Origin: Rugalucina vietnamica | Lineage: Eukaryota; Mollusca; Bivalvia; Lucinida; Lucinidae | Length of the DNA stretch: 64,000 nt | Direction: 5' to 3' | NCBI GenBank assembly: GCA_964017185.1 | Contig: OZ024869.1 | Location: forward strand, 60,414,761 to 60,478,760 | Shown: one piece after another, positions 139 through 42,530 of the stretch | Layout of the letters: each line of letters starts with the position of its first letter | Position numbering within the stretch: position 1 is the first letter of the stretch | Notes under the pieces: generated by a model | The model's input: the letters and a program-made list of their open reading frames with translations, nothing else | Told to the model about the DNA's origin: nothing | Database searches by the model: none | Program-made: the position numbers and the translations under genes

Positions 139-3100
139 TGATGATGATGATGAAGAATCCGAGCTGTCAGACACCGGTAGACACCCCCAGAGAGAGAGAA
201 AGTCAGTGATGTCTGTAGATACTTTGTTATAAGTCTGTTACATATTTGAAGCCTGTGTATTGTTGATCAGGCCACTGTTGACATTTATGTTTAAAATTTA
301 GTTTCGAATGATTTGTAATATTTTACAAATGAGCTTCAAGTGGAGCACTTATTTTTCCATTGCATTTGTTGATGATAGTAATTGTGATCTGTTGGCATCT
401 TGGCGACAAGTTAGATGTCGAGAACAAGGTTTCCTATAAAATTTCATCATAAATTCTGCTTATATTTCAGGTTCCAAACCCCACAAAGAGCTGGCAGAAG
501 TGATTGAGAAGCAGTACCTATTGAAGGACATCAGGAAGTTGTCACCAGCTGAACAGACTTATGGCATCGAGGCGTTCCACAAGATCTGCTGCTATTTTGC
601 TACAAAATTTGTACACTTCTTTTACCTGAGCATGGACGGAAGGTAAGTTCTGTGTCTTTGTGGTTCAAGAGTTTTATCCTTGATGGATAGAAATAAGATG
701 AAAATAGACACAAAGACATGTGTTAGATTGAGTCAAATGAGCATTATTGATTTATAGAGTTTAATAATTGTAAATGGAGCAAAACATTATGATTTAGAAC
801 ATTTGTAGATGGTATCTGTGCATAAAATTTATAACTAGCTTGACTGCTAAGCATATTCCAGGATAAATCAGTGATACAGTCTATACCTACCTACTTCCAA
901 AATTCAGAACCTCCTATTATTTGTTACAAATATAACAAACCAATCAGAAATACTATTTTTAATTTCAATAAACTTGTTTCTGATCTTGATATCCATGCTA
1001 ATACTCCTAAGTCTTGAGATTGTAAAGATTCAAAATATGTTTATCAACCAGCTGGACATATAGTTACTGGAAATTTAAAAATAATTTCGGATTCTAGAAT
1101 TCGCAAAATTGTTTCTAAAGGTCCGAAATATAGATTCCCTTCCTACATTAATTTCAACAAATGCAGAGAGGAGATTGCATCTGCATTAAATGATTTCGGT
1201 AATCGATGGTGTAAACGAGAGGGTGTTGAGGATAATGCTCTTAAAGAATGGAAAAGAAGTATCTTCACTATCGTGGATAAACGTATTAAGTTTTATTCAC
1301 AAAATACTAATCTTTTACCTCCTAAACCCAAATCGTCATTTAGGCATTTGAAGCAGGGTATCCATGAATTTCATAGAAAGTATGTCTTGGTTCCGGCAGA
1401 TAAAGCCGCAAACAATGTTGTTGTCGTTTGTAGACTTCACTACGTTAACACCTTAAAACAGGAGCTTAATGGTACCAGGGCTTATCTGGAGACAGATACT
1501 GATGAGGTGTCTGTAGTAAATGCCCACTTAAACGATTTACCTGTTAAGTTTTCTGTTTGTGTCAATGAAGGCCAAGACAAACTTCCTACGATGTATTGGT
1601 TACCTAAGCTTCACAAAAGACCATACAAAGCTAGATTTATTGCAAATTCTAGCTCTTGTACTACCACTGAACTTTCTAAATTATTAACTTCTTGTCTTAC
1701 TGCTATCAAATCTCATGTTATAAGATACTGTGAGACAGTGTATGAAACTTCAAATAAAAATTGGTTTTGGTCAATAAAAAATTCTGGTGAGGTGCTCAGT
1801 AAATTGAAGTGTAGAGGGTTCCGTGCGACAAGCTTGTCCACATATGATTTTTCTACTCTGTATACAACATTACCACATAATCTAATTAAAGAAAAACTTC
1901 TGGATTTGATAGAGTGGACCTTCAAAAGGGCATTAAAAAACTATGGTTCACTTTATTTGGCATGTAATGACAGAAAGGCTTTTTTCACTTCCTCTGACCA
2001 AAGTCGGTATACCCTTTGGTCATGTCAGAATGTGTGCGACGCCTTATCCTATCTCCTTGATAATATTTATATTAGATTTGGGACCAAGTTATACAGACAA
2101 ATTGTTGGAATTCCGATGGGTACAAATTGCGCACCTCTCGTAGCTGATTTATTTTTATACTGCTACGAAAGAGATTTCATGGATTCTCTTAACCATGATA
2201 ATCAAGCTGATGTTATCGAGGCTTTTAATTCCACATCTAGGTACCTCGATGACCTTTTGAACATTGACAACCCTTATTTTGAAGGTATGGTCAATCAAAT
2301 TTATCCACCTGAACTTCAGTTGAACAAAGCTAATATCTCAGATACCGAAGCCCCCTTTTTAGATCTACATCTTTCTGTTGCAAATGGATTTGTTTCTTCT
2401 AAAATTTATGATAAGCGCGATGACTTTGATTTTGATATAGTAAATTTTCCTTTTTTGGATGGTGACGTTCCTCGTCGTGCTTCTTATGGTGTATACATTT
2501 CGCAACTTATTAGGTTTGCTAGAGTCTGCAATCATGTTACAGACTTCAACGCTCGAAATAAATGTTTAACGGCAAAACTTCTCCAACAGGGCTATCGGTA
2601 TCATAAACTTCGAAAAACCTTTTCTAAATTTTATCGTAGACACTATGAATTGATTTCCAAATATAATGTTGGGTTAAAGACACTTTTAAGTGAGGGCCTT
2701 TCGGAACCTGAATTTTATGGTGACTTGGTTTACAAATTAAAGAAACTTAAAGGAATAAATGATTTTTCTCTTCAGTTTGGAAAAATCATATCACGTTACA
2801 GACGTATAGGTTATAACTTGAATGTTATGCGACAGTCTGCATGCTTAGTTTTTAACCCAATCATGGTTGATAACTATGCTGCCTTCTTTAATTGCACGCC
2901 GGTGGGTCGGGCGTCAGACTCTATGATGGCCCCGACTTAAAGCTATTCATTTTAGTTGGTTGGGGCCGGAGCTTCTTGTCTGTTGCTTGGCCCACCGGGG
3001 TCCAACTGGTGTTTTTCTTTTGCTCCGGAGTTAGTAGGTTATTCGGCGCCCAGGGATCTCCATCGTCGGGCAGCTTACTCAATCTGTGAGTCCTGGTTTT

Positions 3101-4633
3101 TGATTCATCAGGATGTTTATCATGATTTATTTGTTTGTTCTTGATGATTCATTGACTAGTTAGAGATTCACCACGAGGACCGAAGAACTAACTAAATGTT
3201 GTGGACCACTGCAGAAGCTGAGGGTGAGGTTAGGTACCTGTAAAACCGGTTTAAGCCCGCCAGTAACTTTGTGTTACTGATCGTTCCAAGTCGATACTTC
3301 TGTAGTGGTTCTTTTTGTTTTATGTCTTGGTGTTTAAATTTTTTTGTGCTGTTGGCGCCTTATGTATGTTTTCATATTTTTAGTTAAGGTAACTGAGTGG
3401 CCACCTATTGGGAAAATAGCTGCTCATTCGGCTTACGATATGTTTCATGGTATAAGTACCTGATTGTTAGTTTGGTTTTTTCCCACCTCGGTTTTTGGAG
3501 TGGGAATCTTTTTCTGATTGCGCCTTTTCCTGATCTTTGCCTACTTGTACCTTTTTAATCAAACTAGCCACTGAGCTACTGATTTATTCCTTGCAGAATG
3601 TTCAGTCTGATTATTACACCATACTTTATTGGTTTTCCTTATCTTAATCTGCTTATCATTTCTGTTTCAGACTAAAGCTGGCGTGCCTGCATTTCAACGA
3701 AAATTCTAACAGGGCACAGAATGTAACCAAGGCTGGCCAACCGATGTGGCAAATCTCACGACCAAAATACAAGAAGGGAGCCCCTGTCGCCAAACAAGTC
3801 AAAGTTGGCCTTTCCTACAGTAAGTAAATTGACGAAAACAAAACATGAGCCGCCTCGTGGGAAAACCAACAATGTGGTTTTTGAACAGGTCCGACACAAA
3901 CTGAGCTGTACCAGCACAGAAGCAGGCTAGAAGCTTGAGATTTTGGATTTATAAAGGAGAGGAAATGCACTATCCGTGTAGCGAAAACAAAGGTGCTGAT
4001 CAGCTTCATAGTTACTGCGAAGCTGATCTGCGCCTTTGTTTTCGCCTAAGCAGATTGTTGGTTTTCCTATGAGGCGGCTCACATATTGCAGTAGTAAAAT
4101 ATACAAGAAATGTTAAAGTTGCTTCATCTTTCAACAGCTAACATGAGCTCTAGCATTGGTTATAGAGATTTTACGGTCACTATTTTTTAAGAACATATGT
4201 ACACTTTATACGTTGAGCTGTGGAAATGTGACATTCTCAAGGCCACAGGACGTGGATCGAACCGGGGACTCCTCAGCCCAAAATCTGATGCGCTACCGAC
4301 TGCGCCCGTCCTGTTGCTTTTATTAGATAAAATTTTCTATATTTTGTCAAGTTTATTTGTTCAGTAATTTCACCATGTTAACATTTTCTTTAATCCATCC
4401 AATTTTACAACTTTTTAAAATATTCCTTTTGCATTTCAGATTATGTGGACAGACTACTGGATGAGGTGATGATGAGAAGGAGAGAATTTAAGAGCTACCG
4501 CCAGTGTAAGACTGACCTAGAAGCTGTGGTACAGTCAACGCCCAAGCCAGTGTGTCACAAATATGACAGTGTGGACAAGCAAGCTGTTGTCTCAGCTCAT
4601 AAGTGTCGTTTCGGCAATCAGACTCCAAAATAA
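139..4633 (+). CDS. Gene A: 3' exons of an uncharacterised conserved protein
   Basis: Four exons can be read: 139-176, 471-642, 3671-3819 and 4440-4633, each after a T-rich AG acceptor; the first three end at GT donors (GTAAGT for exons 2 and 3). Phases agree (1, 2, 1) and the frame ends at TAA 4631-4633. The translation starts with an acidic run (DDDDEES), continues with an exon containing KLSPAEQTYGIEAFHK, then a lysine-rich exon containing LACLHFNENSNRAQ and RPKYKKGAP, and ends in a basic, cysteine-bearing tail. I recognise the KLSP / LHFNEN / PKYKKG pattern as belonging to a multicopy family of uncharacterised animal proteins, possibly transposon-derived; I do not know its biochemical function. 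The 5' exons lie outside the window. Intron 2 (643-3670) holds a PLE and intron 3 a MITE. Exon structure is well supported; the family call is from memory. Confidence 0.72.
201..282. repeat. 82-bp exact copy of the 3' end of gene B
   Basis: The 82 bp here, starting 24 bp inside intron 1 of gene A, are identical to 7270-7351. That segment covers the last codons, the stop and some 3' UTR of gene B. The match stops abruptly at both ends. Confidence 0.9.
853..2940 (+). CDS. PLE reverse transcriptase (C-terminal part of EN-RT polyprotein), one in-frame TGA
   Basis: The frame is open from 853 to TAA 2938-2940 apart from one TGA at 1015-1017. The first ATG is well downstream, because this copy has lost its 5' end. 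Seen in order: the linker with a (TGA)-D-C motif and PAGHIVTGN; fingers and palm including VPADKAANN, LPKLHKRPYKARFI, an STYDFSTLYTTLPH segment (motif A type), GIPMGTNCAPLVADLFLY (motif B), SRYLDDLLNI (motif C, catalytic DD) and FLDLHLSV; then a basic thumb-like C terminus. RYLDD with GIPMGT is typical of Penelope-like RTs, relatives of telomerase RT. The RT catalytic aspartates are present and no TAA or TAG interrupts the frame, so the RT part could still be functional, although the endonuclease is missing here. Confidence 0.88.
1015..1017 (+). other. In-frame TGA, candidate selenocysteine codon in the CxC linker motif
   Basis: The TGA replaces the first cysteine of the CxC linker motif that characterises N-terminal-endonuclease PLEs; the local reading is PKS-(TGA)-DCKDSK. 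Copy 2 has TGA at the same codon (13878-13880) with different neighbouring codons. Clam Naiads are known to have evolved selenocysteine-containing proteins (Craig et al. 2021). No SECIS element was identified by eye. Confidence 0.7.
3847..4080 (+). mobile_element. MITE, GAGCCGCC-TIR family, with 4-bp TSD ACAT
   Basis: A 234-bp unit with terminal inverted repeats of nearly 30 bp (GAGCCGCCTCGTGGGAAAAC at the left, its complement at the right), flanked on both sides by ACAT. Inside is a second long hairpin around the motif AACAAAGGYGCTGATCAG. It lies in intron 3 of gene A. Confidence 0.85.
4246..4313 (-). repeat. tRNA-like sequence (SINE head or tRNA pseudogene)
   Basis: The minus strand reads like a tRNA: a D-arm CGCAGTCGGTAGCGC, an A-box-like stretch, and a B box GGTTCGATCC. 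The anticodon stem has a mismatch and a six-base loop, and the T stem pairs poorly. I therefore read it as a tRNA-derived repeat, not an active tRNA gene. Confidence 0.5.
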
Positions 4634-6361: not shown

Positions 6362-6595
6362 GAGCCACCTTGTGGGAAAACCAACAATGTGGTTTCCGAA
6401 CAGGTCTGATACAAACCAACTTGTACAGTCACAGAAAAGAGCTAGAAGCTTGAAATTTTGGATTTAAGAAGAAGAGGTACTGTACATTCCGAGTAGCGAA
6501 AACAAAGGCGCTGATCAGCTTCGCAGTTACTGCGAAGCTAATCTGCGCCTTTGTTTTTGCCTAAGCAGATTGTTGGTTTTCCCATGTGGTGGCTC
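6362..6595 (+). mobile_element. MITE, GAGCCGCC-TIR family, with TSD ATTT
   Basis: Exactly 234 bp like the copy at 3847, with TIRs GAGCCACCTTGTGGGAAAAC and its complement. It is flanked by ATTT on both sides and has the internal hairpin built on AACAAAGGCGCTGATCAGCT. Confidence 0.87.
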
Positions 6596-6897: not shown

Positions 6898-7125
6898 TGA
6901 TATGAGAAAAGCTGTATTCGGGGTTTTCAACCTGGTCTGACACAAACCATTATGCACAGCTACTGAAGGCGGCTAGAAGCTTGAATTTTAAAATTAAGGA
7001 AGAAATATTGCACTATCCTGTAGCGAAAACAAAGGCACTAATTAGCTGTGCAGTTATTGCAAAGCGGATAAGCATCTTTGCTTTCGCATATATATATGAA
7101 AATATTCTGTTTTCTCATATAATGA
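6898..7125 (+). mobile_element. Degenerate MITE, GAGCCGCC-TIR family
   Basis: It keeps the CCTGGTCTGACACAAACC motif, the GAAAACAAAGGCAC motif and the order of the family's modules. The TIRs are eroded (TGATATGAGAAAA at the left, TTTTCTCATATAATGA at the right). Confidence 0.55.
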
Positions 7126-7295
7126 CAGACTTGAATTTTATGATTTTCACTGAGGAAAAAGAATTGCAATACACTAAATATGTGGCTCAATTTGATGTTA
7201 GTCATAAGGCAGCGTATTGTTCTATTTGTCATCTTGGGTAAGTTGGCGGCTGTTGAAGCACACAATCATAGTCAGTGATGTCTGTAGATACTTTG

Positions 7296-9082
7296 TTATA
7301 AGTCTGTTACATATTTGAAGCCTGTGTATTGTTGATCAGGCCACTGTTGACGAATCTTGTGAGTAGCGCAAGATGGAATGGGCTTCCGCACACCCCTGCC
7401 TAGCCGACGCCAGACCCAACGGGTAAATCTTCTGTAAGCAACATGACGATAGAGTCTGAAAATATAAGATAATACATACATGTATAAGATAATATACCTG
7501 TACTTTTTACACTTGTAAAATGATGCTCTACACTTTGCTGTCATACATGTGATTCATTGTAGTTTAACGACCAAGTCAACAATTTAGCTATGTTATTACA
7601 GATGAAATTCATTAAATGCCAATGTGTGCCACTGACCCTTATTTGTGGCGTGTCAGTCCCAACATGACTGATCAATTGTTGACTGGGTTTAATGAACATT
7701 CAATATCTAGATATGGCTCACATATATATGTTTCTGTACATAATCAATGCCAAAATGTTTGTTTTTTTTATTACTGCTATAGGTGTTTGTTTTACCTTTA
7801 TTTTTTGTTACATGTACATATATGTCATTCAAATTATAAAACAAATGAAATATCTTACACTTCAGTTTTCTCTTGTTTGTCCTACTTTTAGCATAATGAT
7901 ACTTCAATATTAACTGAAAGAAAGTCTAATGAAAGAAATTTAACAATGTAAAATGTTACGTACTTATGAATTGGCTCGTCGTCCCCAACATGACCGTAAC
8001 CCTCCAGAAACTCATAAAAGGATGTCTCAACTACATATTCATTCAGACAATTTCCGTCGTACCCTGGATGCTGTGTGATACAGTCTAACCCAAGATCATG
8101 GGCTAGATTGAAGATGATGCCCCGCTCTCTGCAACAAAAACTGGTTTCTGGCTTCTCCATGGGCACACATTCTCCACATTCACACCTGCAAAGAGAAAGT
8201 CATCATAGAGAAAAAAACGTACATGTTGATAAGAGACACTTTGGTACTTCAAGGCCAGCAATAAAGAAGCCGCAACACAAGCTACACTCTATCTTTCTAT
8301 AAAGAATGATTTATGTTATTGTACAGGTGCTAATAAGGTGATTAAAAATGGTAGTCATTTTGGTACATGTACATGTAACATGCTGTTTGCATTCAAAAAC
8401 AGGAACAAGTGCTAAAATGCAAATGCAAGCATTTGTACATTACTTTTATAAGCACATGGAACCTTCTGTAGGGAGACCCATCTAGGGAGGATACCCGGGT
8501 GGCTTTGACACCCTCCGGTGTTAATAAAAATAATATCCGGTGAGTTTGTGAAATTGTCTGGGTCGGAACAATATAAGCAATTACAGTTCAATACTATCCT
8601 GCGCTTGATGGGGGTGTCATGTTGGATACCCCCGCCCCCTTCTCACAGGACAGGGGACATTGTTTACAAAGGAATGTTTTTTTAACCATGAAAAAGATGA
8701 CACAAGTTTCTCTTGTGCTTGGTATTCTGTTTCAGAAGCACCAATACGAATGTCAATATTTTTTAGGCCCTATCACAGCCAGAGTGAGCGTTTTTTTTTT
8801 TTTTTTTTTGTTGTTTTTTTTTTCCATCTTATGTCAGATCTAATGTTCTGACGACATCCCAAATCCATGGCAAACTGTCAATAGCCTAAAATATAACAGC
8901 GGTGAATGTTGGCTAGACAGGGGAAGATCAAATATACCCGAAGTATAAAAACAACGGGAATAATAGGATTCAATTTACCATTCTGTATTTCCAACACGAG
9001 CGTTCAGATCTTCCTCCGATTCGCTGTCGCTCGTCACATCGGAGTCGGTTTCGTACGCAATTACTGGCAGATTCTGCGTCAT
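7296..9082 (-). CDS. Gene B: stand-alone P2X7 C-terminal (ballast) domain protein, three exons
   Basis: Exons on the minus strand are 9082-8979, 8185-7964 and 7455-7296, all with GT donors and AG acceptors; together 486 nt, 161 residues. The start ATG (9082-9080) has an in-frame TAG 9 nt upstream. Residues 1-34 are acidic (SDSESEED). Exon 2 opens with the cysteine cluster WCECGECVPM, followed by CCRERG and CITQHPGYDGNCLNEYV. Exon 3 reads YRHVAYRRFTRWVWRRLG, then PSCATHKIR and YTGFK before the stop. This order of motifs is that of the cytoplasmic ballast domain of P2X7 receptors, which in the mammalian receptor holds zinc and a guanine nucleotide. No transmembrane channel part is present, so it is probably a soluble protein of unknown role. 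It is convergent with gene A; the 3' end is duplicated at 201-282. Confidence 0.87.
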
Positions 9083-10860: not shown

Positions 10861-13100
10861 AAACCTCAATAAACCAAACATTAACGCAATTTCAGTAAAT
10901 TCATCATGGAAACTATCATCGAACCAAAATGTTTGAATCGTATTAGAGACGTGGTGTCATGGATAAAAAAGTAGGCAAAGATCAGGAAAAGTCGCAATCA
11001 GAAAAAGATTCCCACTCCAAAAACCGAGGTGGGAAAAAACCAAACTAACAATCAGGTACTTATACCATGAAACATATCGTAATCCGAATGGGCAGCTATT
11101 TTCCCAATAGATAGCCACTCAGTTACCTTAACTTAACTAAAACTATGAAAAGATACAAGTAGGCAAAGATCAGGAAGAGGCGCAATCAGAAAAAGATTCC
11201 CACTCCAAAAACCGAGGTGGGAAAAAACCAAACTAACAATCAGGCACTTATACCATGAAACACATCGTAAGCCAAATGAGCAGCTATTTTCCCAACAGGT
11301 GGCCACTCAGTTACCTTAACTTAGTTAAAAATATGAAAACATAAATAAGGCGCTAACAGCACAAAAAAATTTAAACACCAAGACATAAAACAAAAAGAAC
11401 CACCACAGAAGTATCGCCTTGGAACGATCAGTAACACAAAGTTACTGGCGGGCTTAAACCGGTTTTACAGGTACCTAACCTCACCCTCAGCTTCTGCAGT
11501 GGTTCATAACATTTAGTTAGTTCTTCGGTCCTCGTGGTGAATCTGTAACTAGTCAATGAATCATCAAGAACAAACAAATAAATCATGATAAACATCCTGA
11601 TGAGTCAAAAACAAGGACTCACAGATTGAGTAAGCTGCCCGACGATGGAGATCCCTGGGCGCCGAATAACCTACTAACTCCGGAGCAAAAGAAAAACCCC
11701 AGTTGGACCCCGGTGGGCCAAGCAACAGACAAGAAGCTCCGGCCCCAACCAACTAAAATGAATAGCTTTAAGTCGGGGCCATCATAGTGTCTGACGCCCG
11801 ACCCACCGGCGTGCAATTAAAGAAGGCAGCATAGTTATCAACCTTGATTGGGTTAAATACTAAGCATGTAGACTGTCGCATAACATTCAAATTATAACCT
11901 ATACGTCTGTAACGTGTTATGATTTTTCTGAACTGAAAAGAAAAATCATTAATTCCTAAAAGTTTCTTAAATTTGTAAACTAAGTCACCATAAAATTCAG
12001 GTTCCGAAAGGCCCTCACTTTAAAGCGTCTTTAACCCAACATTATATTTGGAAATCAATTCATAGTGTCTACGATAAAATTTAGAAAAGGTTTTTCGAAG
12101 TTTATGATACCGATAGCTCTGTTGGAGAAGTTTTGCCGTTAAAAATTTATTTCGAGCGTTGAAGTCTTTAACATGATTGCAGACTCTAGCAAACCTAATA
12201 AGTTGCGAAATGTAAACACCATAAGAAGCACGACGAGGAACGTCACCATCCAAAAAAGGAAAATTTACTATATCAAAATCAAAGTCATCGCGCTTATCAT
12301 AAATTTTAGAAGAAACAAATCCATTTGCAACAGAAAGATGTAGATCTAAAAAGGGGGCTTCGGTATCTGAGATACATGTATTGGCTTTGTTTAACTAAAG
12401 TTCAGGTGGATATATTTGATTGACCATACCTTCAAAATAAGGGTTGTCAATGTTCAAAAGGTCATCGAGGTACCTAGATGTGGAATTAAACGCCTCGATA
12501 ACATCAGCTTGATTATCATGGTTAAGAGAATCCATGAAATCTCTTTCGTAGTAGTATAAAAATAAATCAGCTACGAGAGGTGCGCAATTTGTACCCATCG
12601 GAATTCCAACAATTTGTCTGTATAACTTGGTCCCAAATCTAATATAAATATTATCAAGTAGATAGGACAAGGCGTCGCACACATTCTGACATGACCAAAG
12701 TGTATACCGATTTTGGTCAGAGGAAGTGAAAAAAGCCTTTCTGTCATTACATGCCAAATAAAGTGAACCATAGTTTTTAATGCCCTTTTGAAGGTCCACT
12801 CTATCAAAACCAGAAGTTTTTCTTTTATTAGATTATGTGGTAATGTTGTATACAGAGTAGAAAAATCATACGTGGACAAGCTTGTCGCACGGAACCCTCT
12901 ACACTTCAATTTACTGAGCACCTCACCAGAATTTTTTATTGACCAAAACCAATTTTTATTTGAAGTTTCATACACTGTCTCAAAGTTTCTTATAACATGA
13001 GATTTGATAGCAGTAAGACAGGAAGTTAATAATTTAGAAAGTTCAAAGGTAGTACAAGAGCTAGAATTTGCAATAAATCTAGCTTTGTATGGTCTTTTGT

Positions 13101-13277
13101 TAAGTTAAGTTAAGGTAACTGAGTGGCCACCTATTGGGAAAATAGCTGCTCATTCGGCTTACGATATGTTTCATGGTATAAGTACCTGATTGTTAGTTTG
13201 GTTTTTTCCCACCTCGGTTTTTGGAGTGGGAATCTTTTTCTGATTGCGCCTTTTCCTGATCTTTGCCTACTTGTACC
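13101..13277 (+). mobile_element. Solo PLE tail (177 bp) inserted into RT, 17-bp TSD
   Basis: This is a lone copy of the family's 3' tail, in opposite orientation to its host copy. It starts TAAGTTAAGTTAAGG and ends CTTGTACC. The 17-bp TTTGTATGGTCTTTTGT stands at 13084-13100 and again at 13278-13294, and the undisturbed target is seen once in copy 1. It is a clean insertion of the terminal module. Confidence 0.95.
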
Positions 13278-13877
13278 TTTGTATGGTCTTTTGTGAAGCT
13301 TAGGTAACCAATACATCGTAGGAACTTTGTCTTGGCCTTCATTGACACAAACAGAAAACTTAACAGGTAAATCGTTTAAGTGGGCATTAACTACAGACAC
13401 TTCATCAGTATCTGTCTCCAGATAAGCCCTGGTGCCATCAAGCTCCTGTTTTAAGGTGTTAACGTAGTGAAGCTTGCAAACGACAACAACATTGTTTGCG
13501 GCTCTGTCTGCCGGAACCAAGACATACTTTCTATGAAATTCTTGGATACCCTGCTTCAAATGCCTAGTTTTAGTAGGTAAAAGATTAGTATTTTGTGAAT
13601 AAAACTTAATACGTTTATCCACGAGAGTGAAGATACTTCTTTTCCATTCTTTAAGAGCATTATCCTCAACACCCTCTCGTTTACACCATCGATTACCGAA
13701 ATCATTTAATGCAGATGCAATCTCCTCTCTACATTTGTCGAAATTAATGTAGGAAGGGAATCTATATTTCGGACCTTTAGAAACAATTTTGCGAATTCTA
13801 GAATCCGAAATTATTTTTAAATTTCAAGTAACTATATGTCCGGCTGGTTGATAAATATATTTTGAATCTTTACAATC

Positions 13878-13880
13878 TCA
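13878..13880 (-). other. In-frame TGA, candidate selenocysteine in the CxC linker
   Basis: Minus-strand TGA read as PKY-(TGA)-DCK, the same codon as 1015-1017 in copy 1. It is in frame with the RT. It is in frame with the endonuclease once the 13-nt deletion is accounted for. Confidence 0.68.
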
Positions 13881-14743
13881 ATACTTGGGAGTATTAGCAT
13901 GGATATCAAGATCAGAAACAAGTTTATTGAAATCAAAAATAGTATTTCTGATTTGTAACAAATAATAGGAGGTTCTGAATTTTGGAAGTAGGTAGGTATA
14001 GACTGTATCACTGATTTATCTTGGAATATAATTGGTAAATCAATAACGTCAATTCCGTTCTTAATGAAAGGAATTTTTATAAAACTTCTAATGTGATTAG
14101 CTTCGGAATCGATAAATGGACGAAGATCATGCTGAGTATAACATCTTGTTAACAGTGCAGCGTCATACATTTGATGTTTTCTATCGTAAAATATATTAGC
14201 CTCTGTGTCCAAGGAACGTAATGCAGCAATCGGTAAAAAAATATGATAGGACAGCATTGGATGTCGACCGTGAATCCTTAGTTTAACAGCTAAATCATTA
14301 AGAGAAATGTTCAATATCAATGCAGCGCACCGTTTACGTTTGTCATTACCCTTTTTCCGTATACCATGAGATCGAGATTTACGTTTACGGGACTCTGAAA
14401 GTGTAAGCACATCAAAATCGGGCATTTTGGAAATGTTGCCTTCATGGTAAATGTTGTCGTTAAATCCCAGTGGAAAGGGTGTTTGCAGTAATTTTATCCA
14501 TTTAAGTTCAGTTTCAAATCGTTTGATGTTTTTGAATCTAACTGAAGAATTTTCATCATATGAGATTTTCTCCACTGGTTGAACTATAACATCATTGGGA
14601 GAATGACCAGTGCGCTTAAAATGCTGGTACAGAAAGGTATCATTATGTTTGGGCTTTCTGATTCTACGATAGCGCTCACCAAATCGTTTTTGCATAGTTC
14701 GACAAGTTTGTCCAACATATTGCATCCTACAATTATTTGTATT

Positions 14744-14746
14744 TCA
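14744..14746 (-). other. In-frame TGA, candidate selenocysteine in the CCHH motif of the endonuclease
   Basis: It stands directly after VYVLT, where Naiad endonucleases normally have the first Cys of the CCHH motif. The second Cys follows five codons later, just before YVGQT. Confidence 0.65.
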
Positions 14747-14776
14747 AGTAAGAACATATACAAGATCTATTGATTT

Positions 14777-14779
14777 TCA
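14777..14779 (-). other. In-frame TGA, candidate selenocysteine upstream of the nuclease motif
   Basis: It is in frame with the TGA at 14744 (33 nt apart), in the context LD-(TGA)-KS. Related proteins commonly carry Cys just before the GIY-like strand. Confidence 0.55.
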
Positions 14780-14942
14780 GTCTAAATCAGAATCATTAGA
14801 AAACACACATAAGGCGCCAACAGCACAAAAAATTTTAAACACCAAGACATAAAACAAAAAAAAACCACCACAGAAGTATCGCCTTGGAACGATCAGTAAC
14901 AACCCATGATTCAAATAAAAATGAATTCCTATGAGCATTTTT

Positions 14943-15160
14943 GAGCCGCGACGCGAGAAAACCGGTCTTCGGGGTATCCGACCAGGTCTGACACATACCG
15001 GCCTGTAAAGGCTCAGAAGAAAGTTAAAATCTTGGGTAGGGGTAGTGGAGGTATTATGTGTACTAACAAAGGCACTGATCAGCTATGCAGTTACTGCACA
15101 GCTGATCTGCGTCTTTGTTTTTACATAGGCAAAAAACCCAGTTTTCTCAAGATGCGGCTC
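14943..15160 (+). mobile_element. MITE, GAGCCGCC-TIR family
   Basis: The TIRs GAGCCGCGACGCGAGAAAAC and its diverged complement (GTTTTCTCAAGATGCGGCTC) enclose the family's internal CCAGGTCTGACACA motif and the hairpin around AACAAAGGCACTGATCAGCT. The flanks no longer give a clear 4-bp duplication. Confidence 0.8.
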
Positions 15161-15892: not shown

Positions 15893-15947
15893 CTGGATGT
15901 ACTTTTTAGTTCAAAAATATTTTGCCGATACATCATGTATTCCGAGA

Positions 15948-17072
15948 GGTACAAGTTGGCAAAGATCAAGAAAAGGCGCAATCAGAGAAAGATTCCCACT
16001 CCAAAAACCGAGGTGGGAAAAAACCAAAGTAACAATCAGGTACTTATACCATAAAAACATTTCGTAAGCCGAATGAGCAGCTATTTTCCCAATAGGTGGC
16101 CACTCAGTTACCTTAACTGAACTAAAAATATGAAAACATACATAAGGCGCCAACAGCACAAAATAATTTAAACACCAAGACATGAAACAAAAATAACCAC
16201 CAAAGAAGTATTGACTTGGAACGATCAGTAACACAAAGTTACTGGCGGGTTTAAATCGATTTTACATGGCCATAACCTCACCCTCAGCTTCTGCAGTGGT
16301 TCATAACATTTAGTTAATTCTTCGGTCCTCGTGGTGAATCTCTAACTAGTCAATGAATCATCAAGGACAAACAAATAAATCATGATAAACATTCTGATGA
16401 ATCAAATACCAGGACTCACAGATTCAGTAAGCTGCCCGACAATGGAGATCCCTGGGCGCCGAATAACTTACTAACTCCGGAGCAAAATAAAAACATCAGT
16501 TGGACCCCGGTGGGCCAAGCAACAGACAAGAAGCTCCGGCCCCAACCAACTAAAATGAATAGCTTTAAGTCGGGGCCATCAAAGAGTCTGACGCCCGACC
16601 CACCGGCGTGCAATTAAAGAAGGCAGCATAGTAATCAACCATGATTGGGTTAAAAACTAAGCATGCAGACTGTCGCATATTATTCAAGTTATAACCTATA
16701 CGTCTGTAACGTGTTATGATTTTTCTAAATTGAAAAGAAAAATCATTACTTCCTATAAGTTTCTTAAATTTGTAAACCAAGTCACCATAAAATTCTGGTT
16801 CCGAAAGGCCCTCACTTAAAAGCGTCTTTAACCCAACATTATATTTGGAAATCAATTCATAGTGTCTACGATAAAATTTAGAAAAGGTTTTTCGAAGTTT
16901 ATGATACCGATAGCCCTGTTGGAGAAGTTTGGCCGTTAAACATTTATTTCGAGCGTTGAAGTCTGTAACATGATTACACACCCTAGCAAACCTAATAAGT
17001 TGCGAAATGTAAACACCGTAAGAAGCCCGACGAGGAACGTCACCATCCAAAAAAGGAAAATTTACTATATCA
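15948..17072 (-). mobile_element. Penelope-like element, copy 3 (5'-truncated)
   Basis: It keeps the 3' region and the C-terminal part of RT (frame 17113-16565, its first codons in flanking DNA), truncated at 17072 inside FPFLDGDVPRRASYG. It belongs to the subfamily with AATCGATT, not AACCGGTT, in the 3' region, shared with copy 6. Confidence 0.9.
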
Positions 17073-18250: not shown

Positions 18251-19154
18251 TGTATGTATACATCTTTTTCTCCTTTAGTTTTTCCACAAAGCTGAGATGT
18301 ATGAATCCAGGGACAGAATCATTATCTCACATCTTTTACTTTAAAATGCACTACAACATGAGCATGAAGACTGTGTGAAACAGGTTAAATATCTTTCCTA
18401 TGCTTGCTACGGCCCATATTAGATTCACACTTAAGCAAGAATCACGATATGTAATAATTGAGCATCACTATCCATTATGAATGGTAGCCGCTCATTCCAT
18501 TTTCTGAAACTGTCAGATTCAGAGTATTTCTCATTCATTCTCTGTATATGTAGATTAGTCCGCCTCTTAGTCCTATGATACATCATTCTGTCAAAACCTA
18601 AACCTGAAAGTAGAAATGGAGTGCTATACATAAATGTGAATGTCTAAATATGATCTCCTATAAAGCAAAATTTCCAAAATGGAACCCTAAAAATATTATC
18701 ATTTTATAAACTTTCTGATTATTTGAAATAAATAACTTGTAGCTCTATTTCAACCTTCACAAACTTCATTCTTGACTTTGTTGATACAAAGGTACATATA
18801 TAAACGTGTATATGTCAAAGGTACATTTAAGTGTGTTTGTATATATTTGTAAATAAATTATAGTGTAAACATGTAAATATGACTATGATGACCATATTTT
18901 GAATCCATAGACTCATCTTGATCCATTATTGCAGAAGCGATGGAAAATATATGTATATTTATTTTGTGTGCACTGAATAAGTTTACGGAGTCTTATCATG
19001 TATGTTTTTTTTTATTTCTCAGTCATAACGTATAGTTTAGTAGTTTCTCTATATGCTCTGTCCTCTCTCTATACTATCTGTGGACTCCTCGGTATCAATA
19101 GTTCAATCATCAAGTTTTATTTCTGCTTGAATGTGTTTTATGGCATAAATCTCA

Positions 19155-21914
19155 ATGGGAAATGAAAATAAAATGAACCGGGTGAGACAGGAAACACAAA
19201 CAGCACAAGTAAATAATCATATACAAAACTCCTCCATTAAGTTAGCCCCTACAAATATAAACAGTATTAGAAACAAATTAGATGATATTGCCGCTGAACT
19301 GTCCGATTATGACGTCATTTGCGTATCCGAAACAAAACTAAACAACTCTATTCTCTCTACTAATCTTATGCTAAACTCATACAATATGCCTATTAGAAAA
19401 GATAGAGAAACTAATAATGGAGGTGGGCTCATCATTTATGTTAAAAATAATATTTGCTTCAAACGAAGACAAGATCTTGAAAATAATAGTATTGAAAACA
19501 TATGGATAGAGGTCCAAGCCCTTAACAATAAATTCTTACTAGGTCTGTTCTATAGACCCCCAGAAGCAAAAGCAGAATACTGGGTTTCATTTGAAAACAT
19601 AATTGAAAATGCCTCAGAAGAAAACCTAAATATTATCATCATGGGAGACCTAAACCATGACATCTTAAAGCAATACAATAACAACAAGCTCTCTAAAATA
19701 TTGTCTAAATTTAACTTGCAAAACCTAATCACAGAGCCAACAAGGGTGGATAACAAATCATCAACATGTATTGACCTAATTCTTACAAATCATAATGCAA
19801 TAATCACAAATACAAATGTCTTACCTCCCTTTAACAGTGACCACTGTACAGTCACTGCAGAAATCACTTTTAAGACATACAAAGCTTTAGCATACCAAAA
19901 AACTATATGGAAATATGACGAAGCAGACTTGACTTCAACAAAACATAAGTTCAGTTCCATTGATTGGTCCTTTATTGAAAATGGAAATAATTTAAATATT
20001 ATCAATGAAAAGTTTAAAGATATTTTAATTGAAATAGCAGAACAATGCATTCCTAAAGTTACATTTACTTGCAGACCTAATGATAAACCTTGGATGAGCA
20101 ACATAATTCGTAAAAGCATGAGGCAAAGAGATAGACTTTACCATAAGGCAAAAAATAAAAACGATGATTTTCACTGGCAAAACTATAGAAATAAAAGAAA
20201 CCAAGTTGTACAAATGGTAAGAGATGCAAAGAAATCCTATATGTCCACCTTACAAAGTAAACTTGCAGATCCAAATTTACCATCTAAAAATTGGTACAAA
20301 ATAGCAAATGATATTACTAAAATGAAAAACAAAAGTAATCCACCTCCACCATTAATTAAAAATGGAGAAGCAAATATTCACCCATTTGACAAAGCACAAG
20401 TCTTAAATAACCATTTTGCTAGCATTTCAACTATTGAAAATGACAAAGAAATTAATGAAAATTTAGAATTACCTAACTTTTCACTTAATACAATTGTTGT
20501 AACTGAACAAGATGTTAAAGATCAATTAAACAACCTAAACTCTAAGAAACCAGGGGGGCCCGATGAAATTACGCCAAACCTTATTAAAACATTTAATACC
20601 AATCTCATTAAGCCACTTACCTTACTATTCAACAGATCACTTCAACTAGGTCAAGTCCCAAGCCAATGGAAAATGGCCAATGTCTCTGCTATTTTCAAGG
20701 GGAAAGGTAGTGAAGATGACCCCTCAAACTACAGGCCCATTTCTATCACAAGTTGTATAGGGAAAATCCTGGAAAAAATAATTTTTAAATACTTGTATAA
20801 TTATCTACAAGAAAATCAAATATTAACCAAATTTCAATCAGGTTTTCGACCAAAAGATTCCACAGTTAACCAGCTACTAGAAATTTATCACACTATTATT
20901 GAAAATTTAGATAATCAAAAAGATATCAAATTCATATTCTGTGATGTAAGCAAAGCATTTGATAAAGTTTGGCATAAAGGTTTACTACACAAGCTACAAA
21001 AATATGGAATTACCGGTACTATGCTTAATTGGTTTAATAGTTACTTATCAGGAAGGCAACAAAGGGTTAAAAACGAAGGGTTCTATTCAACATGGAGTAA
21101 CACAAATGCAGGGGTCCCCCAGGGGTCAGTATTAGGGCCGTATTTATTCTTATTGTATATTAATGATATAACAGAAAATATAAGAACCAATATAAGACTA
21201 TTTGCCGATGACACAACTTTGTACACAGTTATTGAGAATGAGGACTCAATTCATTTGCTAAACGAAGACTTGAGACAAATTGCTATTTGGGCTGATAATT
21301 GGCTAATCTTATTAAATCCTACAAAAACTAAATCTATGACTTTTACTAGAAAATGGGAAACAAACTGGCCTGAAGCTAAATTTAATAATGTAATTATTGA
21401 AGATAAAAAAACACATACCCACTTAGGAATAACCTTTTCATCTGATGCTACCTGGGATGAACATATACGTATTATCTATAAGAAAGCTGCTTATCGCCTG
21501 AATATTATGAGAATGCTTAAATATGACTTAGATCGTAAATCTCTGTTTCGCTTTTATATTTCCTTCGTAAGGCCAACATTAGAATATGGCAACATTTTAT
21601 GGGATAATGGTACTAAAGATCAATCTAAATTACTTGAATCAATCCAATTAGATGCCATCAGAATCATCACTGGATTAAGGAGAGGTACGTCTCACGAAGT
21701 CCTATATGCAGAAGTAGGGCTCTCTAGTCTAGCTGAAAGAAGAAAAGATGCAAAATTAATTCAATTTTACAAGATTCTAAACAATGAAGCGCCAGCATAT
21801 ATTGATGATATACTTAAAAATTTCAACCAACATAACACAGGTTATAACCTTAGAAATAATAATCTAAGGCACCCAACACCAAGTACTTCTCATACCAAAA
21901 AAGTTTTTTCATAA
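19155..21914 (+). CDS. LINE ORF2: APE endonuclease plus reverse transcriptase (jockey/CR1-like)
   Basis: A 919-residue frame. Residues about 30-235 form an apurinic-type endonuclease: NINSIRNKLDDI, SETKL, GLFYRPP, MGDLNHD and SDHCTV. RT follows at about 480-760: KKPGGPDEITP, NYRPISI, FCDVSKAFDKVWH (motif A), AGVPQGSVLGPYLF (motif B) and FADDTTLY (catalytic DD near residue 682). The C-terminal part has the TLEYGNILWDN stretch typical of jockey and CR1 relatives. The enzyme nicks target DNA and copies the RNA onto it. The frame stops early because of a frameshift in a T6 run near 21905; the natural continuation is listed separately. No ORF1 is visible upstream, so the copy is probably 5'-truncated or has lost it. 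Confidence 0.9.
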   Translation: MGNENKMNRVRQETQTAQVNNHIQNSSIKLAPTNINSIRNKLDDIAAELSDYDVICVSETKLNNSILSTNLMLNSYNMPIRKDRETNNGGGLIIYVKNNICFKRRQDLENNSIENIWIEVQALNNKFLLGLFYRPPEAKAEYWVSFENIIENASEENLNIIIMGDLNHDILKQYNNNKLSKILSKFNLQNLITEPTRVDNKSSTCIDLILTNHNAIITNTNVLPPFNSDHCTVTAEITFKTYKALAYQKTIWKYDEADLTSTKHKFSSIDWSFIENGNNLNIINEKFKDILIEIAEQCIPKVTFTCRPNDKPWMSNIIRKSMRQRDRLYHKAKNKNDDFHWQNYRNKRNQVVQMVRDAKKSYMSTLQSKLADPNLPSKNWYKIANDITKMKNKSNPPPPLIKNGEANIHPFDKAQVLNNHFASISTIENDKEINENLELPNFSLNTIVVTEQDVKDQLNNLNSKKPGGPDEITPNLIKTFNTNLIKPLTLLFNRSLQLGQVPSQWKMANVSAIFKGKGSEDDPSNYRPISITSCIGKILEKIIFKYLYNYLQENQILTKFQSGFRPKDSTVNQLLEIYHTIIENLDNQKDIKFIFCDVSKAFDKVWHKGLLHKLQKYGITGTMLNWFNSYLSGRQQRVKNEGFYSTWSNTNAGVPQGSVLGPYLFLLYINDITENIRTNIRLFADDTTLYTVIENEDSIHLLNEDLRQIAIWADNWLILLNPTKTKSMTFTRKWETNWPEAKFNNVIIEDKKTHTHLGITFSSDATWDEHIRIIYKKAAYRLNIMRMLKYDLDRKSLFRFYISFVRPTLEYGNILWDNGTKDQSKLLESIQLDAIRIITGLRRGTSHEVLYAEVGLSSLAERRKDAKLIQFYKILNNEAPAYIDDILKNFNQHNTGYNLRNNNLRHPTPSTSHTKKVFS

Positions 21915-25323: not shown

Positions 25324-26308
25324 AACTTCTCCAACAGGGCTATCGGTATCATAAACTTCGAAAAACATTTTCTAAATTTTATCGTAGACACTATGAATTG
25401 ATTTCCAAATATAATGTTGGGTTAAAGACGCTTTTAAGTGAGGGCCTTTCGGAACCTGAATTTTATGGTGACTTGGTTTACAAATTTAAGAAACTTAAAG
25501 GAATTAATGATTTTTCTTTTCAGTTCAGAAAAATCATAACACGTTACAAACGTATAGGTTATAACTTGAATGTTATGCGACAGTCTGCATGCTTAGTTTT
25601 TAACCCAATCATGGTTGATAACTATGCTGCCTTCTTTAATTGCACGCCGGTGGGTCGGGCGTCAGACTCTATGATGGCCCCGACATAAAGCTATTCATTT
25701 TAGTTGGTTGGGGCCGGAGCTTCTTGTCTGTTGCTTGGCCCACCGGGGTCCAACTGGTGTTTTTCTTTTGCTCCGGAGTTAGTAGGTTATTCGGCGCCCA
25801 GGGATCTCCATCGTCGGGCAGCTTACTCAGTCTGTGAGTCCTGGTTTTTGATTCATCAGGATGTTTATCATGATTTATTTGTTTGTTCTTGATGATTCAT
25901 TGACTAGTTAGAGATTCACCACGAGGACCGAATAACTAACTAAATGTTATGAACCACTGCAGAAGCTGAGGGTGAGGTTATGGCCATGTAAAACCGGTTT
26001 AAGCCCGCCAGTAACTTTGTGTTACTGATCGTTCCAAGTCGATACTTCTGTGGTGGTTCTTTTTGTTTTATGTCTTGGTGTTTAAAATTTTTTTGTGCTG
26101 TTGGCGCCTTATGTATGTTTTCATATTTTTAGTTAAGTTAAGGTAACTGAGTGGCCACCTATTGGGAAAATAGCTGCCCATTCGGCTTACGATTGTTTCA
26201 TGGTATAAGTACCTGATTGTTAGTTTGGTTTTTTCCCACCTCGGTTTTTAGAGTGGGAATCTTTTTCTGATTGCGCCTTTTCCTGATCTTTGCCTACTTG
26301 TACCTTTT
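25324..26308 (+). mobile_element. Penelope-like element, copy 5 (5'-truncated)
   Basis: It contains the last 120 or so codons of RT (stop near 25688) and the complete 3' region ending CTTGTACC plus T run. It shares diagnostic changes with copy 8 and the tail at 53389, for example CTTACGATTGTTTC instead of CTTACGATATGTTTC. Confidence 0.92.
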
Positions 26309-28603: not shown

Positions 28604-30978
28604 AAGGTACAAGTAGGCAAAGATCAGGAAAAGTCGCAATCAGAAAAATATTCCCACTCCAAAAACCGAGGTGGGAAAAAACCAAACTAACAATCAGGTA
28701 CTTATACCATGAAACATTTCGTAAGCCGAATGAGCAGCTATTTTCCCAATAGGTGGCCACTCAGTTACCTTAACTTAACTAAAAATATGAAAACATACAC
28801 AAGGCGCCAACAGCACAAAATATTTAAAACACCAAGACATAAAACAAAAAGAACCACCATAGAAGTATCGACTTGGAACGATCAGTAACTCAAAGTTACT
28901 GGCGGGTTTAAATCAATTTTACATGGCCATAACCTCACCCTCAGCTTCTGCAGTGGTTCATAACATTTAGTTAGTTCTTCGGTCCTCGTGGTGAATCTCT
29001 AACTAGTCAATGAATCATCAAGGACAAACAAATAAATCATGATAAACATACTGATGAATCAAAAACCAGGACTCACAGATTCGGTAAGCTGTCCGACGAT
29101 GGAGATCCCTGGGCGCCGAATAACTTACTAACTCCGGAGAAAAAGAAAAACATCAGTTGGACCCCGGTGGGCCAAGCAACAGACAAGAAGCTCCGGCCCC
29201 AACCAACTAAAATGAATAGCTTTAAGTCGGGACCATCATAGAGTCTGACGCCCGACCCACCGGCGTGCAATTAAAGAAGGCAGCATAGTTATCAACCGTG
29301 ATTGGGTTAAAAACTAAGCATGCAGACTGTCGCATAACATTCAAGTTATAACCTATACGTCTGTAACGTGTTATGATTTTTCTAAACTGAAAAGAAAAAT
29401 CATTACTTCCTATAAGTTTCTTAAATTTGTAAACCAAGTCACCATAAAATTCTGGTTCCGAAAGGCCCTCACTTAAAAGCGTCTTTAAGGTGAGGGTGAG
29501 GTTAGGTACCTGTAAAACCGGTTTAAGCCCGCCAGTAGCTTTGTGTTACTGATCGTTCCAAGTCGATACTTCTGTGGTGGTTCTTTTTGTTTTATGTCTG
29601 GGTGTTTAAAAAATTTTGTGCTGTTGGCGCCTTATGTATGTTTTCATATTTTTAGTTAAGGTAACTGAGTGGTCACCTATTGGGAAAATAGCTGCTCATT
29701 CGGCTTACGATATGTTTCATGGTATAAGTACCTGATTGTTAGTTTGTTTTTTCCCACCTCGGTTTTTAAAAAAATTTTGTGCTGTTGGCGCCTTATGTAT
29801 GTTTTCATATTTTTAGTTAAGGTAACTGAGTGGTCACCTATTGGGAAAATAGCTGCTCATTCGGCTTACGATATGTTTCATGGTATAAGTACCTGATTGT
29901 TAGTTTGTTTTTTCCCACCTCGGTTTTTGGAGTGGGAATCTTTTTCTGATTGCGCCTTTTCCTGATCTTTGCCTATTTGTACCTTTTTTAACCCAACATT
30001 ATATTTGGAAATCAATTCATAGTGTCTACGGTAAAATTTTAAAAAGGTTTTTTGAAGTTTATGATACCGATAGCCCTGTTGGAGACGTTTAGCCGTTTAA
30101 CATTTATTTCGAGCGTTGAAGTCTGTAACATGATTGCAGACTCTAGCAAACCTAATAAGTTGCGAAATGTATGCACCATAAGAAGCACAACGAGGAACGT
30201 CACCATCCAAAAACGGAAAATTTACTATTTCAAAATCAAAGTCATCGCGCTCATCATAAATTTTAGAAGAAACAAATCCATTTGCAACAGAAAGATGTAG
30301 ATCTAAAAAGGGGGCTTCGGTATCCGAGATATTGGCTTTGTTCAACTGTAGTTCAGACGGATTTTGATTGACCATACCTTCAAAATAAGGGTTGTCAATG
30401 TTCAAAAGGTCATCGAGGTACCTAGAAGTGAAATTAAAAGCCTCGATAACATCAGCTTGATTATCATGGTTAAGAGAATCCATGAAATCTCTTTCGTAGC
30501 AGTATAAAAATAAATCAGCTACGAGAGGTGCGCAATTTGTACCCATCGGAATTCCAACAATTTGTCTGTATAACTTGGTTCCAAATCTAATATAAATATT
30601 ATCCAGGAGATAGGATAAGGCGTCGCACACATTCTGACATGACCAAAGTGTATACCGACTTTGGTCAGAGGAAGTGAAAAAAGCCTTTCTGTCATTACAT
30701 GCCAAGTAAAGTGAACCATAGTTTTTTTAATGCCCTTTTGAAGGTCCACTCTATCAAATCCAGAAGTTTTTCTTTAATTAGATTATGAGGTAAAGTTGTA
30801 TACAGAGTAGAAAAATCATATGTGGACAAGCTCGTCGCACGGAACCCTCTACACTTCAATTTATTGAGCGCCTCACCAGAATTTTTTATTGACCAAAACC
30901 AATTTTATTTGAAGTTTCATACACTGTCTCACAGTATCTTATAACGTGAGATTTGATAGCAGTAAGACAGGAAGTTAA
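28604..30978 (-). mobile_element. Penelope-like element, copy 7 (5'-truncated, with nested inverted copy)
   Basis: It has a tail, 3' region and RT down to about the middle, interrupted at 29490-29986 by another PLE 3' fragment in opposite orientation. RT pieces retain GIPMGTNCAPLV and RYLDDLLN (frame 30705-30097). It is truncated at about 30978. Confidence 0.9.
29490..29986 (+). mobile_element. PLE 3' fragment nested in copy 7, with internal tandem duplication
   Basis: It starts in the 3' UTR (GGTGAGGGTGAGGTTAGG) and ends CTTGTACC plus T run. About 160 bp (29607-29766) are repeated immediately at 29767-29930, with the same private changes (GTGGTCACC, AGTTTGTTTTTTCC). Confidence 0.9.
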
Positions 30979-40267: not shown

Positions 40268-41332
40268 AAAGGTACAAGTAGGCAAAGATCAGGAAAAGGC
40301 GCAATCAGAAAAAGATTCCCACTCCAAAAACCGAGGTGGGAAAAAACCAAACTAACAATCAGGTACTTATACCATGAAACAATCGTAAGCCGAATGGGCA
40401 GCTATTTTCCCAATAGGTGGCCACTCAGTTACCTTAACTTAACTAAAAATATGAAAACATACATAAGGCGCCAACAGCACAAAAAAATTTTTAAACACCA
40501 AGACATAAAACAAAAAGAACCACCACAGAAGTATCGACTTGGAACGATCAGTAACACAAAGTTACTGGCGGGCTTAAACCGGTTTTACATGGCCATAACC
40601 TCACCCTCAGCTTCCGCAGTGGTTCATAACATTTAGTTAGTTATTCGGTCCTCGTGGTGAATCTCTAACTAGTCAATGAATCATCAAGAATAAACAAATA
40701 AATCATGATAAAAATCCTGATGAATCAAAAACCAGGACTCACAGACTGAGTAAGCTGCCCGACGATGGAGATCCCTGGGCGCCGAATAACCTACTAACTC
40801 CGGAGCAAAAGAAAAACACAAGTTGGACCCCGGTGGGCCAAGCAACAGACAAGAAGCTCCGGCCCCAACCAACTAAAATGAATAGCTTTATGTCGGGGCC
40901 ATCATAGAGTCTGACGCCCGACCCACCGGCGTGCAATTAAAGAAGGCAGCATAGTTATCAACCATGATTGGGTTAAAAACTAAGCATGCAGACTGTCGCA
41001 TAACATTCAAGTTATAACCTATACGTTTGTAACGTGTTATGATTTTTCTGAACTGAAAAGAAAAATCATTAATTCCTTTAAGTTTCTTAAATTTGTAAAC
41101 CAAGTCACCATAAAATTCAGGTTCCGAAAGGCCCTCACTTAAAAGCGTCTTTAACCCAACATTATATTTGGAAATCAATTCATAGTGTCTACGATAAAAT
41201 TTAGAAAATGTTTTTCTAAGTTTATGATACCGATAGCCCTGTTGGAGAAGTTTTGCCGTTAAACATTTATTTCGAGCGTTGAAGTCTGTAACATGATTGC
41301 AGACTCTAGCAAACCTAATAAGTTGCGAAATG
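40268..41332 (-). mobile_element. Penelope-like element, copy 8 (5'-truncated)
   Basis: Complete tail and 3' region plus the RT C terminus (frame 41403-40888, its first codons lying in flanking DNA). It has the same subfamily markers as copy 5. Confidence 0.92.
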
Positions 41333-42278: not shown

Positions 42279-42530
42279 GACCGGCCCGATAGCTCAACTG
42301 GTAGAGCGTCCGCTTCGGGATCGGGAGGTCGCAGGTTCGATCCTCGGCCGCGCCATACCAAAGGCGTTAAAAATGATACTGGTAGCTTCCTTGCTGACGC
42401 TCGCAATAAAAGGGTAGTTCCAGGAAGATACAAGAAGGCAGGTAAGTATCTGTTAAGGATATTTGTTATGTCGCATAATAGCTCATGAGCTAATGTTGTC
42501 TGTTAAAAACGCGACGTTAAATAAAGCTTG
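42279..42530 (+). repeat. tRNA-derived SINE (head 42281-42353)
   Basis: The head is tRNA-like: ATAGCTCAACTGGTAGAGCG (A box) and GGTTCGATCC (B box), loop reading CGG as for a proline tRNA. Acceptor and anticodon stems have mismatches. The unit ends GACGTTAAATAAAGC. I reject an active tRNA because of the mismatches. Confidence 0.7.

Follow-up and report, generated by a model that had tools for sequence, protein, structure and literature searches.

In Penelope-like retrotransposons (PLEs) of the Naiad type, an N-terminal GIY-YIG endonuclease is followed by a C-x-C linker and a reverse transcriptase (RT). Naiads are not known to carry a hammerhead ribozyme, and pseudo-LTRs and tandem copies are features of the group. 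Selenocysteine (Sec) has reportedly been found in Naiads from clams and spiders. Naiad is also named as a PLE group in the available text of PMC10941475. Another related system is PAc, a Poseidon PLE of Anolis (PMC11167929), which combines a telomerase-like RT with a GIY-YIG endonuclease and forms pseudo-LTRs and tandem copies, as does the family described below; unlike that family, PAc carries its endonuclease at the C-terminus and has a hammerhead ribozyme, and the available part of that paper does not mention Sec. Among titles and opening lines of abstracts, we found no article in which Naiad or Penelope elements were linked to selenocysteine or to selenoproteins.

The window analyzed here is a 64-kb stretch of contig C1, and the genome searched comprises 1.09 Gb on 47 contigs. 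Self-comparison of the window revealed one repeat, present as two long copies and numerous fragments. This repeat is very probably an abundant and recently active Naiad-type element, with a single frame in which three UGAs, here called U1, U2, and U3, would be decoded as Sec. The frame consists of a Cys-rich N-terminal stretch, the GIY-YIG endonuclease, a linker of the form U-x-C, and the RT. In a young copy (L064), it covers 1101 codons between two TAA stops (1077 when counted from the first ATG, at codon 25), and the TGAs at codons 157, 168, and 461 are its only interruptions.

The Naiad label given in the initial annotation is supported by this anatomy, in which a predicted endonuclease precedes the RT and is joined to it by the U-x-C linker; in L064 both are in one frame, the endonuclease from about codon 157 and the RT motifs after codon 461. 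The motifs GIPMGTN..A and YLDD, spotted by eye in the frame of copy 1, are presumably those of the RT. In a Pfam search neither the endonuclease nor the RT domain was matched, and PDB sequence searches returned nothing useful. No hammerhead ribozyme was found: SECIS_1 was the only match in L064 at E-values up to 0.5, and no hammerhead reached the gathering score in the window. Signs of pseudo-LTRs or tandem copies are the repetition of the 3′ part before the endonuclease, a unit end before the next unit in copy L037, and an array on contig C16. In the latter (C16:28604341-28617875), four element matches are spaced by 4228, 4228, and 4153 bases, head to tail. The Naiads of Craig et al. 2021 are said to share the N-terminal GIY-YIG endonuclease, C-x-C linker, and RT, as well as several in-frame Sec codons and a high copy number. 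As far as can be told, the present family is a further case of these already reported Sec-encoding Naiads and no new kind of thing; the initial annotation had suggested as much, and the TGA counts, SECIS, tRNA-Sec genes, selection, and Cys columns presented below support it.

Copy 1 (853..3560, + strand; the limits of both long copies are approximate and come from comparing them with each other) is 5′-truncated and retains the linker, RT, SECIS, and 3′ part, without the endonuclease. Its U3, read directly at 1015..1017 (+), begins the linker motif TGA-GAT-TGT and is followed by an RT reading frame of 640 codons (1018..2940, +) that ends in the TAA at 2938-2940. Copy 2 (11148..14901, − strand) consists of a pseudo-LTR piece, the endonuclease, the linker, a broken RT, and the SECIS. 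The pseudo-LTR (14799..14901, −) is a piece of the element's 3′ part that abuts the endonuclease on its upstream side and matches 3272-3373 at 94%; within copy 2 there is also an inverted copy of the element's 3′ tail (13105..13280, +; 99.4% over 176 nt). The three TGAs of copy 2 were likewise read directly on the minus strand: U1 at 14777..14779, a Cys position 11 codons before U2; U2 at 14744..14746, at the place of the first Cys in the endonuclease motif, flanked by the GIY-like VYV and the YVG; and U3 at 13878..13880. The endonuclease frame after U2 has 303 codons (13832..14743, −). Most of what the initial annotation stated about these codons stands: the linker TGA at 1015, about 640 open codons in copy 1, about 280 in the copy 2 endonuclease, and copy 2 TGAs at 14777, 14744, and 13878, which are the last bases of the respective codons.

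The implication that the copy 2 TGAs share one frame is correct for U1 and U2 and fails for U3. Copy 2 lacks eight nucleotides that copy 1 has (coding YNKPI..), which places its endonuclease and linker in different frames. It also has an extra TGA at 13824..13826 (−), where copy 1 has GGA (Gly); this is decay and recurs in copy L031. Copy 2 is decayed, and taken alone it is weak evidence for the Sec reading, because the linker is out of frame with the endonuclease and one more TGA occupies a Gly codon. All three TGAs were read in seven other copies (L031-L037), five of which have the endonuclease and U3 in a single frame; L034 and L035 are the exceptions, through a 2-nt deletion. These two copies are 20.6 kb apart and have the deletion and their 5′ part in common, so they probably belong to a duplicated stretch.

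Upstream of copy 1, at a distance of 7224 bases (C1:60408536 versus 60415760), is another copy of the element with a 640-codon frame, and an 82-nt repeat at 201-282 and 7270-7351 is 100% identical, with the two occurrences 7069 bases apart. Both may have arisen when a segment of about 7 kb was recently duplicated. Copy 3 is a 3′ fragment of the element (15947-17072). The window also contains a 921-codon frame at 19149-21914 (+) with exonuclease/endonuclease and RVT_1 domains, which marks a LINE-type retrotransposon; a repeated 72-nt imperfect hairpin that occurs four times (3977-4048, 6492-6563, 7019-7090, and 15056-15127), possibly a miniature inverted-repeat element, at which microRNA matches were far below the Rfam cut-offs; and a tRNA-like match at 42283-42355 (+; 31.7 bits, cut-off 29). 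Elsewhere in the genome, pieces of the element were present in 10 of 20 sampled 10-kb stretches. These are mostly 3′ fragments, and the samples inform on abundance and SECIS only, because no piece spans U1-U3.

To place U1 and U2, a generic PLE endonuclease motif with Cys, which we typed, was used to search the genome. All 150 scored matches (of 1405 candidates) had no stop inside the motif. We fetched four of these matches (L060-L063), and each has its endonuclease at the end of the frame, the arrangement of canonical PLEs. Aligned with these four endonucleases, U1 and U2 of L064 fall in invariant Cys columns. The distance between the two is 11 residues in every one of the five sequences, the stretch reading CKSKNVVYLITC in L062 versus UKSMDLVYVLTU in the family, and three His columns are invariant along with U2, if U2 is counted as Cys. 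These four canonical EN+ PLEs of the genome resemble the family in having a GIY-YIG endonuclease, with Cys where the family has U1 and U2; they differ in that the endonuclease ends the frame, no stop interrupts the motif, and the Cys pair is spaced as the usual C-x2-C, whereas the family has U-x4-C. The second Cys of the family, two residues later than usual, is not in an invariant column.

U3 starts the U-D-C of the linker at codon 461 of L064. We read U-D-C as probable Sec in place of Cys, on the strength of the linker motif. This motif was typed from recall and partly shaped by the present sequence; it matches the family at about 45-47%. In a genome search with it, all but three of the 150 matches listed (of 1853 candidates) begin at residue 4, immediately past the U3 position, which is the effect that a TGA at U3 would have. 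One fragment, C1:43064278-43064520, is like the family's linker and matches the typed Naiad-like motif at 70% over 81/81 residues; unlike the family, it has no stop and carries a sense codon at the U3 position, in a frame of 158 aa. The initial annotation had assigned the last two TGAs of copy 2 to Cys positions, and this is upheld and extends to the first. Its further statement that TGA is confined to such positions agrees with the alignment for U1 and U2 and with the linker motif for U3, and is contradicted by the extra TGA at the Gly codon of copy 2.

We searched the window for SECIS elements with Rfam RF00031. In copy 1, a SECIS at 2915..2982 (+) scores 39.0 bits against a gathering score of 35, with a fold z of -5.1; that of copy 2 is at 11726..11793 (−; 39.1 bits). 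Three further 3′ fragments carry one at 25663..25730 (+; 37.4 bits), 29180..29247 (−; 36.2 bits), and 40846..40913 (−; 37.4 bits). These five are all the SECIS_1 matches of the window at gathering score 35. Fold z values for five stretches of the window range from -4.6 to -6.1. In copy 3, the ATGA core has become TTGA, and the match at 16523..16590 (−; 30.5 bits) is below the gathering score. L064 has its SECIS at the frame's end (39.0 bits), so a full-length 3′ region with a SECIS does exist, as the initial annotation required. In 14 sampled loci, a SECIS scored above threshold at four places (once each in L014 and L017, twice in L019), each within a piece of the element. A search of the whole genome listed 16 SECIS matches at E-values up to 0.001 (39-46 bits), with 150 of 42234 candidates scored; these possibly belong to host selenoprotein genes.

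With the SECIS stretch lined up in 17 copies, 12 keep the ATGA core and AAA without indels; the core is changed or indels are present in the remaining five (the fragment 16523-16590, L034, L013, L029, and L012). Mean identity among diverged copies is 0.91-0.92 for 2828-3003; high identity at the SECIS alone is no proof of selection on it, because identity is equally high at 3092-3179.

The SECIS had been expected within 2941-3556. It does exist at the 3′ end of the frame, but it lies across the stop codon: the TAA at 2938-2940 is inside 2915-2982, and the larger part of the SECIS follows the stop. Most of the 5′ arm, together with the ATGA core and the first part of AAA, falls within the last codons, GAC TCT ATG ATG GCC CCG ACT TAA. 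The two common forms of the codon before the stop, ACT and ACA, both encode Thr; L013 has no stop. According to the available text of PMC3628699, eukaryotic SECIS elements are located in the 3′ UTR, whereas that of the element begins in the coding frame, as read in the DNA. Among titles and opening lines of abstracts, we found no article on a SECIS overlapping a stop codon; the phrase "partially overlaps" in the available text of PMC3628699 concerns cell images.

The codons at the three TGA positions were then compared among copies of the element. As query, we used the endonuclease-linker protein of copy L033 (504 residues) with Cys at the three TGA places. All 85 copies scored (of 4475 first-look candidates) had the three TGAs; 84 of them had no other stop, and one adds a TAG. 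The 1101-codon frame is listed for 42 of the 85. That L033 itself scores 99% indicates that each TGA is scored as a mismatch; with Cys at the three places in the query, a Cys-coded copy of similar quality should outrank the rest. There was no such copy among the 85 scored matches.

From 42 matches, 27 copies (L031-L057) were fetched, leaving L030 (which is copy 2), 12 full-length matches, and two partial ones. U1 is TGA in 26 of the 27 and TTA in one; U2 is TGA in 26 and TAA in one; U3 is TGA in all 27. Over codons 45-369, the fetched copies reduce to 19 distinct sequences. Their 6779 codon cells include 61 stops, of which 56 (55 TGA and 1 TAA) are at U1, U2, or U3; the one other cell of the 57 at these positions is TTA. 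The five stops elsewhere are at codons 387 (1 TGA) and 389 (2 TGA, 2 TAA). Codon 389, TTA (Leu) in the reference L033, is a stop in 4 of the 19 distinct copies, which is above expectation for scattered decay. Since the fetched copies were picked by likeness to copy 2 or L033, these counts hardly sample old branches.

Patterns that leave the codon in question free gave similar results. The U2 pattern matched 604 places at up to two mismatches, and TGA was found at all 100 of the matches listed (0 mismatches, contigs C1-C3, counted by eye). For the U3 pattern, with 1418 places, the 100 matches listed (0 mismatches, all on C1, also counted by eye) had 97 TGA, 2 TGT, and 1 TCA. A Cys codon in the U2 context had 0 exact matches genome-wide in the two contexts tried; with TGA, the first of these contexts had 49. 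We read the copies with TGT or TCA at U3, TTA at U1, or TAA at U2 as decay. The initial annotation had argued that chance nonsense mutations would not produce this pattern, and the contrast between 55 TGAs in 57 target cells and five stops in all remaining cells bears this out. Chance nonsense in decayed copies is ruled out by the stop distribution in the 19 copies, the 85 of 85 scored copies with three TGAs, and the U2 and U3 counts. TGC or TGT is not the prevailing form in the copies seen: the three TGAs are present in all 85 scored, Cys at U2 has no exact match, and TGT occupies U3 at 2 of the 100 places listed.

To assess selection on the frame, a change found in at least two of the 19 distinct copies was taken as inherited (shared), and a change found in one as private. 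The test is crude, and mutational hot-spots or gene conversion could add to the shared class. Private changes number 106 nonsynonymous and 30 synonymous (dN/dS about 0.94, as expected of dead copies), against 20 and 27 shared ones (dN/dS about 0.20; Fisher p 1.6e-5). Between U2 and U3, the private and shared ratios are 67/24 and 10/18 (p 5e-4; shared dN/dS 0.15); after U3, where only seven copies extend beyond codon 402, they are 21/2 and 5/5 (p 0.016; shared dN/dS 0.26). The difference before U1 (14/2 and 4/4; shared dN/dS 0.27) is not significant (p 0.13). The overall result holds when L031 is removed (p 1e-4, codons 45-402) and when L031, L034, and L035 are removed (p 2e-4, codons 77-368). 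Because shared changes have a low dN/dS, selection acted on the stretches of the protein between the TGAs and beyond them during the spread of the family; the frame around the TGAs was under purifying selection in the source copies.

These data bear on the possibility that the TGA copies are dead or non-autonomous, owe their spread to an intact Cys-coded master acting in trans, and had their TGAs fixed by drift. In its favor, PLE copies are often truncated, and TGT does occur at U3 in 2 of the 100 listed places of the 1418, one of them with a 674-aa frame. However, no Cys master was found with the L033 query, among whose 85 best matches it should have scored highest, or with exact U2 Cys patterns in two contexts. 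The shared-change dN/dS of about 0.2 around the TGAs also speaks against dead copies, and to copies of this kind a SECIS would be useless. We therefore consider a trans-acting master improbable, though less so than the alternatives considered below.

Decoding of the UGAs as Sec would further depend on the host. The genome has two tRNA-Sec genes scoring 79.0 and 71.2 bits (gathering score 47), both with anticodon TCA according to ARAGORN; the other 22 matches listed do not reach that score. Matches to the tRNA-Sec model also turned up in each of 14 bacterial and archaeal control genomes, over the cut-off in five of them, so the anticodon is the better evidence. The TGAs are present in nearly every copy examined, including young ones, a SECIS stands at the frame's end, and the host possesses tRNA-Sec. 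What the sequence reveals is read-through and not the residue inserted, so an ordinary suppressor or read-through event might instead place another amino acid (Trp, Arg, or Cys) at the UGAs. We regard this as very unlikely, given that the SECIS over the Rfam threshold, the host tRNA-Sec, and the Cys homology at U1 and U2 are all as for Sec. The idea that the TGAs split the protein on purpose, yielding endonuclease fragments and, by internal initiation after U3, an RT without Sec, could draw on the 640-codon frame after U3 in copy 1 and other listed copies, but it is the least credible of all, in that 5′ truncation accounts for such copies, U2 cuts the GIY-YIG motif itself so that no useful endonuclease is expected without read-through, and purifying selection acts between U2 and U3.

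Under the preferred reading, a selenoprotein encoded by the element, host factors would recognize the SECIS of the element and incorporate Sec, which would replace Cys in both endonuclease and linker. Given that U2 separates the two halves of the GIY-YIG motif and U3 precedes the RT, a protein in which endonuclease and RT are joined would arise only by full read-through. Of the findings here, the position of the SECIS across the stop codon most deserves further attention. A ribosome reaching the stop must open the SECIS, and we offer as a speculation, with the odds against it, that each finished round could reset Sec insertion on that RNA. If true, the quantity of endonuclease-RT produced would depend, through the overlap of SECIS and stop, on ribosome load and on the supply of selenium.

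The family raises the questions of why a mobile endonuclease would swap Cys for Sec at positions of the metal-binding type, and whether a SECIS is functional when it spans a stop codon. With many young copies, one frame, and one SECIS, it provides a large natural data set. It also presents a selfish element, with a linker that matches 1418 places, that is apparently reliant on the selenium pathway of its host at three codons of one protein.
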